This document shows, piece after piece, positions 16,768 through 20,505 of a DNA stretch of 36,824 nt. The DNA comes from Candidatus Methylacidiphilales bacterium (GTDB taxonomy: Bacteria; Verrucomicrobiota; Verrucomicrobiia; Methylacidiphilales; JANWVL01). The position numbers and the translations under genes were made by a program. Each line of letters starts with the position of its first letter. The stretch's first letter is position 1. The DNA lies in NCBI GenBank assembly GCA_025056655.1, contig JANWVL010000094.1, positions 1 to 36,824 on the forward strand. Reading direction: 5' to 3'. The notes under the pieces were generated by a model. That model saw only the letters and a list, made by a program, of their open reading frames with translations, was not told where the DNA came from and did no database searches.

Positions 16768-17862
16768 ATGAACGAGGGCGACGCTTCAGCACAAAAACCA
16801 ACCATACCGATACCCGTCAACCCCCAGGCTCCCAGGCCGGCTGTCGCCGTCAACCCATCCACAGCTACCCCAACGGAAGAATCCCCGCTCAAAGTAACAC
16901 CTCCCACGAATCTACCTAAGCCCCCCGTGCCACCAGGCACCCCCACAACACCACCCTCTGTCACAATATCCGCCCCAAAACCAGTGCCTCCTCCGCCCGT
17001 CACACCTACCGTAACAAGCACCCCATCAAATCCCTTAATAGTCAAGCCCCCGATTCCGCCCGGCGCACCACCAATTGCAACCCCGCCTCAAGCCAAACCC
17101 CCAATTGGAGTCTCCCCCACACCCCCCACACCCCCTACCCCTCCCCCCACACCCTCACCTACCGCAGCTACCCCAGCAACCTCACCAACTCCAACACCTC
17201 AGCCCCCAAAACCTCCGGTTTCCACCCCTCCAGTGCCACAACCCCCAGCACGACCAACTGCAACTGTCCCCCCTCCCCCACCTGTAGCTCCCGTTCCCCC
17301 AAAAGAATCTAAAAAAATCAACCTCGCAAAAACCATTGCCGTAAATCCTAAGGTTCCAGCCGGGCTGATAAATCCAGCCGCAAGGCCAGCAACACCACCC
17401 CCACCAGCAATTCCAGCAGGAGCAAAACCTACCACCCCCGGCACTCCTACACCTGTCACAACCCCACCCACACCACCCAAGCCTCAAGGGATCCCTACAC
17501 CCACACCTCCTCCGTCATCACCCTCTGCTAAAACCCCTCCCCCCACGGCCCCACCAAACATCCAGGCCCCGCCCACAGCCAAACCCCAATCTCAACCCCA
17601 GGCCACACCCCCAACTCCCACCGCGACCAAGCCCGCTCCAACCAATGTAAAAGTCGAGCCCGTAAAAGTAGCAGGAGCTGGAGCCATAGTGCCCACAGCA
17701 TCAAAGACCCCAACAATACTCAAGCCCAAAACAGAGACCAAAACAAGCCCCCAAGTCACCGTAGAAGTCCCTCAAAGTTTCGCCTACGTAGTCCTCGCAG
17801 GAGGAATTATCAGCATACTCACGGCTTTCTACCTCGCATTAAGTTATTTCCAAATCATCTAA
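16768..17862 (+). CDS. Proline-rich tail-anchored membrane protein, function unknown
   Basis: 364 residues with no N-terminal signal. About a third of the first 330 residues are Pro, mixed with Thr, Ala, Val and Ser in loose PPTPP/PKPP units with no fixed repeat length. Two islands are not proline-rich: around KESKKINLAKTIAVNPK (about 179-195) and around SKTPTILKPKTETK (about 311-324). One hydrophobic helix (VVLAGGIISILTAFYLALSY) ends the protein, so it is probably inserted by its tail with the Pro-rich part in the cytoplasm. Trx follows after 17 bases and may be cotranscribed. It could be a spacer or adaptor for SH3-like or polyproline binders. I recognise no named family. Confidence 0.75.
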   Translation: MNEGDASAQKPTIPIPVNPQAPRPAVAVNPSTATPTEESPLKVTPPTNLPKPPVPPGTPTTPPSVTISAPKPVPPPPVTPTVTSTPSNPLIVKPPIPPGAPPIATPPQAKPPIGVSPTPPTPPTPPPTPSPTAATPATSPTPTPQPPKPPVSTPPVPQPPARPTATVPPPPPVAPVPPKESKKINLAKTIAVNPKVPAGLINPAARPATPPPPAIPAGAKPTTPGTPTPVTTPPTPPKPQGIPTPTPPPSSPSAKTPPPTAPPNIQAPPTAKPQSQPQATPPTPTATKPAPTNVKVEPVKVAGAGAIVPTASKTPTILKPKTETKTSPQVTVEVPQSFAYVVLAGGIISILTAFYLALSYFQII

Positions 17863-18319: not shown

Positions 18320-18814
18320 ATGCAGTGTCCAAAATGCGGCCACTTAGAAGATCGCGTCATCGATTCACGCCCTCTCGCCGACGGAGCCGCCATCCGCAGA
18401 AGACGTGAATGCCTAAAATGCGGTCATCGCTTCACCACTTACGAAGAAATCGAGCGCGACAACTTACGCGTCCAGAAACGCGACGGCCGCTACGAAGCTT
18501 TTGATCGCAAAAAACTCTTAGCCGGCATGGAAAAAGCCAGCGAAAAACGCCCCATCAGCCGTGCCGTCCTAGAGCGCGCCGCAGAGCGAATCATACAAGA
18601 ACTAACCGAAGAATACGGTGAAGAGTTCCCCAGCGTAGCCATCGGAGAAAAAGTCATGGAAAAACTACGCGTCATCGATGAAGTCGCCTTCGTCCGCTTC
18701 GCATCAGTCTATCGAAAGTTTCGCGACATACGCGAATTCGTCAACGAAATCGAAAACCTCAAGCCGTATGATCGGATTTCAGCAGGGCTTGCCCAGCCTG
18801 ACTTGGTGGAATAA
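18320..18814 (+). CDS. nrdR: NrdR transcriptional repressor of ribonucleotide reductase
   Basis: 164 residues from the ATG at 18320. This start is chosen because NrdR proteins begin with the zinc ribbon M-x-CPxC; here MQCPKCGH is Met1 onward, and the second Cys pair is in ECLKCGHRF. An ATP-cone domain follows (about 48-140; VQKRDGRYEAFDRKKLL through the EEYGEEFPS region), which senses ATP/dATP. NrdR represses nrd genes when dATP is high. A TTGACA at 18271 could be a -35 box, but its -10 is weak. The end overlaps by 47 bases with a gene that itself looks ATP-cone-like. No nrd genes are in the window. Confidence 0.95.
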   Translation: MQCPKCGHLEDRVIDSRPLADGAAIRRRRECLKCGHRFTTYEEIERDNLRVQKRDGRYEAFDRKKLLAGMEKASEKRPISRAVLERAAERIIQELTEEYGEEFPSVAIGEKVMEKLRVIDEVAFVRFASVYRKFRDIREFVNEIENLKPYDRISAGLAQPDLVE

Positions 18815-19316
18815 CGGTCAATTCCCCATCTCACGCGAATGGCTCATCTCCTCCCTGCGACAAGCCGCAAAAAAAGCCGGCCGCCCCAACTGGGGCATGG
18901 AAGAGGATTTCGTAGCCAGCGTCACAAAATACCTAGAAGAAGATTACGGACACAGCACCATCGGCGTATGGCAACTAGAGCAAATGGTCATCACAAGCCT
19001 ACGCACAGTAGGCGAGTATGAAGTGGCCAACTGTTGCAAACTCATCCCACCTCTACTCGTAATCAGCCTCCCCGAAATCGCCGCCTACGCCCACGGTGAA
19101 TTAATGTTCTTCCAAATGCTCCGCGAGCACCTTCAAAAAGCCCTCCACCAAGAAACCGTCAGAATCAAACTCGAAGGCATGCGACAAGCCGTCAAACAAC
19201 TCGCCAAACGCCTACGATGGCGAAAACGCTGCATCGAAATCGAAAAAGAAATTTACAGCTTTCTATCCTTGCTATTCAGCCAGACCTCCAAAGAGATAAA
19301 ACTAATAATCGCCTGA
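18768..19316 (+). CDS. Probable ATP-cone-like protein overlapping nrdR
   Basis: 182 residues from the ATG at 18768, which lies inside the last codons of nrdR in another frame; the next part of the protein reads well and has no nearer in-frame ATG before the conserved region. Residues about 15-92 follow the spacing of an ATP-cone: NNGQFPISREWLISSL, then KYLEEDYG, then VITSLRTVGEYEVAN, which lines up with the cone of NrdR itself (RDGRYEAF, ELTEEYGE, VMEKLR). The rest (about 95-182) is all-helical and basic (LAKRLRWRKRC). No zinc ribbon is present. The overlap suggests coupled translation and a shared job, perhaps tuning NrdR. The cone assignment is by eye and not certain. Confidence 0.65.
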   Translation: MIGFQQGLPSLTWWNNGQFPISREWLISSLRQAAKKAGRPNWGMEEDFVASVTKYLEEDYGHSTIGVWQLEQMVITSLRTVGEYEVANCCKLIPPLLVISLPEIAAYAHGELMFFQMLREHLQKALHQETVRIKLEGMRQAVKQLAKRLRWRKRCIEIEKEIYSFLSLLFSQTSKEIKLIIA

Positions 19317-20050: not shown

Positions 20051-20404
20051 TTATGGACCGTTTTTACGAAGCGACTCTTTAGTCCGGCGCGCTTCACGAC
20101 GTGTGCGGCTTTGCCGACGAGATTTTCGATGGCGAAGCTGCTCCGCCAACCGATCACATACAATATCAATCGCCGAATACAGATCGTGGCCATGATCCTC
20201 TGCATGAATATCCGGCCCAGGAAGCGCCAGATGGATCTTAACAATAAATGCATGCTTATTAGCCTTATCTTGATCGTGCCAGATCGCAACATGTGCACCA
20301 ATAATTTCACCAGCGTAATGCTCAAGATGACCAACCTTTTGAGCAATGTAAGCATGAATCGCAGGAGTTAATTTTACGTCACGAGGGCTAATGTGAATTT
20401 GCAT
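20051..20404 (-). CDS. hpf: Ribosome hibernation promoting factor, short form (HPF/RaiA/YfiA)
   Basis: 117 residues: one beta-alpha-beta-beta-beta-alpha domain of the S30AE family, beginning MQIHISPRDVKLTP and including the helix IHAYIAQKVGHLEHY and the later DLYSAIDIVCDRLAEQLRHR, which is the conserved second helix. The C-terminal tail is short and very basic (RKSRRQSRTRREARR). It binds the 30S decoding site in stationary phase and either blocks translation or forms 100S particles. The long-form dimerisation domain is absent. Upstream is a 101-base gap shared with the divergent psd gene. The choice between HPF and RaiA activity is not possible from sequence. Confidence 0.9.
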   Translation of the reverse strand: MQIHISPRDVKLTPAIHAYIAQKVGHLEHYAGEIIGAHVAIWHDQDKANKHAFIVKIHLALPGPDIHAEDHGHDLYSAIDIVCDRLAEQLRHRKSRRQSRTRREARRTKESLRKNGP

Positions 20405-20505
20405 GAGTAAATAAAAAGGTAGTCATCTAACCTAGCAAAAGCATGCATCATGTCTATGCGATTTTTCTGTTTCTCCACCATTAAAAGAGCTGGTAGGCTG
20501 CGCGC

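Follow-up and report, generated by a model that had tools for sequence, protein, structure and literature searches.

An nrdR-linked ATP-cone protein without a nucleotide-binding pocket in Verrucomicrobiota

In the 36,824-nucleotide stretch of Candidatus Methylacidiphilales DNA analysed here (the window), the gene that overlaps the end of nrdR encodes a protein, called X below (open reading frame 18768-19316, + strand), that is made up of an ATP-cone lacking the nucleotide-binding pocket and a C-terminal alpha/beta domain, and that is encoded in the nrdR operon. We are highly confident that X represents a real, conserved, nrdR-linked family of degenerate ATP-cones, and the nrdR-linked family spans much of the phylum Verrucomicrobiota. 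ATP-cones are known already; what appears to be new is a family of pseudo-cones encoded phylum-wide in the nrdR operon. The features on which the analysis rests are listed in Table 1.

Table 1. Coordinates of nrdR, X, the parts of X, and the nrdA box pair of the same genome
Feature	Position	Strand	Description and basis
nrdR	18320..18814	+	164-aa NrdR with zinc ribbon and ATP-cone; TIGR00244 E 2e-53, PF22811, PF03477 4e-19
X gene	18768..19316	+	182 aa; orthologs in the order share ~33% identity along most or all of the protein; class-wide profile matches
nrdR/X overlap	18768..18814	+	47 bases
Degenerate ATP-cone domain of X	18795..19049	+	residues ~10-94; AF2 model, Foldseek to NrdR/RNR cones, PF03477
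C-terminal b-a-a-b-a-a-b domain of X	19050..19313	+	residues 95-182; AF2 model, conservation, no convincing Pfam/NCBIfam hit
nrdA box pair	L157 about 1795-1843 (G000 contig C171 about 20394-20442)		NrdR-box-like motif score

The X gene and the domains of its product

The 47-base overlap with nrdR that the first-pass annotation had noticed is exact. Among X relatives the two genes mostly overlap by 4 bases or are separated by a short gap (348 bases in one case), and the overlap is long in the window because its NrdR has a longer C-terminus (164 versus ~150 aa). The orthologs start M-I-A/G at the same place, and because M1 and I2 are nearly invariant in the family the ATG at 18768 is taken as correct. 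Changes between close X pairs fall mostly at third codon positions (one such pair has 10 changes at the first position, 6 at the second and 77 at the third), so X is a protein under selection. Could the frame nevertheless be spurious, or its likeness to an ATP-cone due to chance? The weak Pfam score of the window X by itself and the lack of a significant direct BLASTP match to the window's NrdR (E 0.43) would fit such a reading, but orthologs in several dozen families, the third-position codon variation, and structure and profile matches with shuffled controls included (below) all oppose it; its probability is close to nil, and it is already refuted by the conservation data.

The only Pfam match of the window X is to the ATP-cone model PF03477, at 13.5 bits (E 0.11; curated cut-off 25.8). 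The same model matches 20 of 53 class-wide short X sequences (this set, A2, also served as a profile) with a best E of 3.2e-10, and a genome scan found one X relative at 40.9 bits, above the cut-off. The reverse search, with the A2 profile, picks up NrdA and NrdD cones at E 5.9e-6 to 1e-2. The AF2 model of X has a mean pLDDT of 86.1 (residues 21-90 average about 90 or higher) and follows the bb-aa-b-aa order of the ATP-cone fold as follows: a hairpin (strands 10-12 and 18-20), two helices (23-36 and 45-58), a strand (64-66) and two further helices (67-80 and 84-88). The top Foldseek matches of this model in the PDB are all NrdR or RNR ATP-cones at a probability of 1.00, among them 9fxk with an rmsd of 2.8 over 83 columns, although the E-values are modest (1.4e-3). 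The first-pass reading of X as a degenerate ATP-cone is thus borne out by the relatives' profile matches, with the window protein itself below the cut-off, by the reciprocal profiles, and by a predicted structure that gives no different fold. It was also right that X lacks a zinc ribbon: neither TIGR00244 nor PF22811 matches, and CxxC occurs in just 2 of the 53 family members. Nor is there an RNR reductase domain among the Pfam/NCBIfam matches of the 182-aa protein. The likeness drawn between LTEEYG of one cone and LEEDYG of the other places the two in the right register, but the family does not keep the motif (LEEDYG in 1/53).

Where did this cone come from? When the X cone profile is scored against cones taken from the same set of genomes, it gives 63.4 with NrdD, 50.4 with NrdA and 22.7 with NrdR, the respective shuffled-control maxima being 17.7, 18.5 and 17.2. 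Because the NrdD and NrdA scores are the higher ones, the earlier proposal that X arose by duplication of the NrdR cone is not supported, and these profile scores make descent from a cone of the RNR type more likely.

The inner ATP bound by NrdR is contacted by K50, R51 and E56 of the Streptomyces protein (E. coli K53, R54 and E59) and the outer nucleotide by K62 (E. coli K65), and mutants of V48, K50, E56 or K62 lose nucleotide and DNA binding (PMC9110341, PMC12176259). The window's own NrdR has V51, K53, R54, E59, K65, K76 and Y131 all intact, and in the NrdRs encoded at 49 X loci K53, E59 and K65 are present in 49, 48 and 49 cases, respectively. The window X has W13, F19 and W25 at the positions of K53, E59 and K65, with W14 beside W13, and the nucleotide-binding residues of the VxKRDG...E..F...K pattern are kept neither in it nor in the family. 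Among the 53 X proteins position 53 is mostly hydrophobic, position 59 mostly V, T or A, and position 65 is W in 46; no conserved charge occurs at any of the three, and in the long forms (below) nothing charged is conserved at the NrdR-contact positions. Since these contacts are gone, nucleotide sensing by X, as the first-pass annotation had suggested, is unlikely, and X is read as a pseudo-cone, for which the absence of the hairpin in one form (below) argues likewise.

The C-terminal domain contains the best-conserved residues of the family, E111, F114, L118, L145, W151 and C155 being nearly invariant, and has no Pfam, NCBIfam or PDB sequence match. Its Foldseek matches, to AAA ATPases such as p97, are weak, with an rmsd of ~8-9, and not meaningful. 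The earlier description of this part as a basic helical tail was correct in that X carries an extra C-terminal portion, but the AF2 model makes it a folded alpha/beta domain, and basicity is not general in the family (pI 9.8 in the window protein; median 8.4, range 4.9-11.4).

Distribution, operon context and variant forms

X orthologs are present in 46 of the 62 genomes of the order and in 273 of 384 genomes of the class (about 70%). A few weak matches within the class count belong to RNR cones; in G260, for example, the weak A2-profile match is the cone of the genome's own RNR and not X. The nrdR gene lies directly upstream on the same strand at all 30 order loci and all 40 class-wide loci, so the linkage seen at the window's locus holds tightly over the whole class (70/70). 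A named-genome scan returned 103 relatives, of which 80 were kept. These all come from Verrucomicrobia, the cultured Chthoniobacter flavus Ellin428 among them, and they identify the phylum as Verrucomicrobiota. In the named Chthoniobacterales nrdR is the upstream neighbor at 79/79 loci, and a HIT-family (HinT-like, PF01230) gene is adjacent downstream in 72/72 named loci. Among the loci first examined, hinT directly follows X in 49/68; these neighbour counts come from targeted searches, clustering of neighboring ORFs being confounded by shadow frames. The usual operon order is nrdR-X-hinT. The window's genome departs from it, with hinT unlinked to X and the HIT genes on other contigs. A scan of the genome collection with the window X sequence alone gave no match, and A2 was too diverse as a scan query. 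Elsewhere in the window, a 364-aa ORF rich in proline and threonine (16768-17862) sits just upstream of the thioredoxin gene; its product has a hydrophobic stretch at the C-terminus and no Pfam match.

X is present in 269 of 360 genomes with NrdR versus 4 of 20 listed without it (p 1e-6, uncorrected for phylogeny), and two of these four look like contig-edge effects. Five genomes with X, namely G289 (one contig), G181, G410, G418 and G534, have no detectable NrdR, and in G163 an intact X adjoins a frame-broken nrdR. Within one genus nrdR is either frame-broken (G163, L098) or not found (G289, L100), with X and hinT intact. Three lineages (f7, f34 and f31) have nrdR-hinT with nothing recognizable in between.

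Searches with the A2 profile in other Verrucomicrobiota classes yield a longer protein of ~320-350 aa (A3), nearly always with nrdR directly upstream where the stretch examined includes nrdR. PF03477 matches 19/19 of these long forms (best 4e-10), and the A2 and A3 cones align at 8e-20. The AF2 model of a long form has the same cone, and its end repeats the strand/helix order of the short form's second domain; the profile score of 18.2 between the two C-terminal domains (shuffled maximum 17.4) is only suggestive of homology. The idea that the middle part of the long form is a second cone found no profile support. In a few other-class genomes (L140, L149, L146) the long form directly follows ymdB without nrdR, two of these loci being rny-ymdB-X-cysS, and at two further loci ymdB precedes nrdR-X; a link of the long form to RNA turnover genes is possible. 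At ten loci seemingly without X (L255, L256, L258, L260, L261 and others) the gene after nrdR encodes a protein of ~155 aa. It can be aligned with A2 across 137 columns (score 57.6, shuffled maximum 17.6), lacks the cone hairpin, and precedes hinT wherever hinT was found. This variant may correspond to the smallest functional unit of the family.

Possible roles of X

Upstream of nrdA, the window's genome carries two NrdR-box-like motifs in tandem, ACACTATTTGCTGTGT and ACACAACATATTGTGG, spaced 33 bases apart; the pair scores 37/44 over a 2100-base region (maximum 29 among 200 shuffled 1200-base controls), so NrdR is probably active there. Box pairs at p <= 0.02 also occur upstream of nrdR at 15/49 loci, where about 1 would be expected; none was found upstream of the window's own nrdR. 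The NrdA of this genome has two ATP-cones in tandem, and its PF02867 RNR gene is on another contig than X. RNR was found in 45 of the 46 other genomes sampled for it, and X accompanies NrdR whatever the RNR, be it a cone-bearing NrdA or a class II enzyme without a detectable cone. X was also considered as a stand-in for a missing RNR cone, which was rejected as a general rule, since the window's NrdA has its tandem cones and X co-occurs with RNRs with and without cones.

ATP-cones act by pairing with other cones to form nucleotide-dependent oligomers. In NrdR, cone-cone contacts underlie a switch from one assembly state to another: with ATP an inactive dodecamer or filament, with dATP/ATP a tetramer that binds DNA (PMC9110341, PMC12176259). 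The first-pass suggestion that X is a partner or antagonist of NrdR is a plausible hypothesis, although a few genomes retain X and lack NrdR. We tentatively favor, at somewhat less than even confidence, X as a pseudo-cone that senses no nucleotide and acts as a partner in the control circuit of NrdR and RNR, with NrdR as its most likely binding target. The more specific proposal, possible but held more loosely, is that X is a dedicated NrdR modulator, a nucleotide-silent pseudo-cone that joins or caps oligomers by cone-cone contacts and is kept across Verrucomicrobiota in nrdR-X-hinT. The pocket-less cone, made in step with NrdR, could pair with the NrdR cone and cap NrdR oligomers or bias them between the tetramer and the dodecamer or filament, perhaps with the C-terminal domain providing the main contact; repression by NrdR could thereby be either relieved or strengthened. 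Fold and homology, the linkage to nrdR, the loss of the pocket, the NrdR-box pairs and the co-occurrence of X with NrdR count for the partner reading. Against it count the five genomes that keep X with no NrdR found, the frame-broken nrdR of G163, the three lineages in which NrdR works without X, as it does in E. coli and Streptomyces, and the little cone surface that the hairpin-less variant retains.

Because hinT is third in the operon, the partner of X could also lie elsewhere than NrdR. X may be an operon mate with another role, for instance alongside the downstream HIT hydrolase HinT or in the general housekeeping of nucleotides or RNA, its cone being a mere scaffold; we consider this rather unlikely. 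It would account for the frequent hinT neighbor (above), for four loci that have X-hinT with a broken, missing or unlinked nrdR, for hinT following nrdR where X has been lost, and for the long forms near rny-ymdB and cysS. On the other hand, hinT is unlinked in the window's genome and is not adjacent in 19/68 loci, with nrdR just upstream in all of these, and we know of no link between HinT and cone proteins. Direct action on RNR, in which X as a pseudo-cone would bind in trans to the catalytic subunit or to its cones and adjust the enzyme's activity, would explain the linkage to nrdR by both genes serving dNTP control, and it draws on the closeness of the X cone to those of NrdD and NrdA and on the genomes that keep X and lack a detected NrdR, and on the presence of RNR in nearly all of the other genomes sampled for it. 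We judge it unlikely: X is linked to nrdR instead of RNR genes, it is found alongside RNRs of classes I, II and III, coned or not, so that a single conserved docking site is hard to envisage, and the pocket needed for the switch is gone. Much less probable still is that X remains a nucleotide sensor with a rebuilt pocket or non-canonical binding and reports to NrdR. The cone fold and hairpin turn (D/N-G) are partly retained, and NrdR recognizes adenine via main-chain atoms of the hairpin loop (PMC9110341), but the phosphate-binding K53, R54 and K65, together with E59, have no conserved charged substitutes, and the hairpin is wholly absent from the variant in further lineages.

Relation to known ATP-cone proteins

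NrdR is regarded as an autonomous sensor of ATP and dATP, and if the partner reading of X is true, RNR control in Verrucomicrobiota has an extra protein layer and an ATP-cone has been turned from a nucleotide switch into an interaction module, much as pseudokinases were from kinases. The analysis also gives a hint of function, a handle and a testable operon, in the cultured C. flavus Ellin428, for a gene that Pfam and NCBIfam leave unnamed. No whole-protein model for X exists in either collection, and in the literature searched on NrdR with ATP-cones, Akkermansia, Verrucomicrobia, HinT, standalone cones and partners (subscription papers lay outside its coverage) X is undescribed, in agreement with the first-pass statement that no named family is known for it; no protein co-regulator or partner of NrdR is described there.

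How does X compare with its known relatives? Phage ATP-cone domain-containing proteins (Aeromonas phage 4_4572, 88 aa; BFVD) are, like X, free of a reductase domain and match it structurally at a probability of 1.00, but they are viral and too short for the C-terminal domain of X, and the record gives no function. The ATP-cones of RNRs (NrdD and NrdA, also the Leeuwenhoekiella blandensis NrdB, 5olk) are the closest by profile (NrdD above NrdA, scores above), but X has neither the reductase domain nor the pocket residues and is encoded beside nrdR and not beside RNR genes. With NrdR itself (TIGR00244) X has in common the ATP-cone fold (Foldseek, above), the operon and a similar size, whereas its cone sequence is not closest to that of NrdR, and it lacks the zinc ribbon and nucleotide contacts and adds the C-terminal alpha/beta domain.
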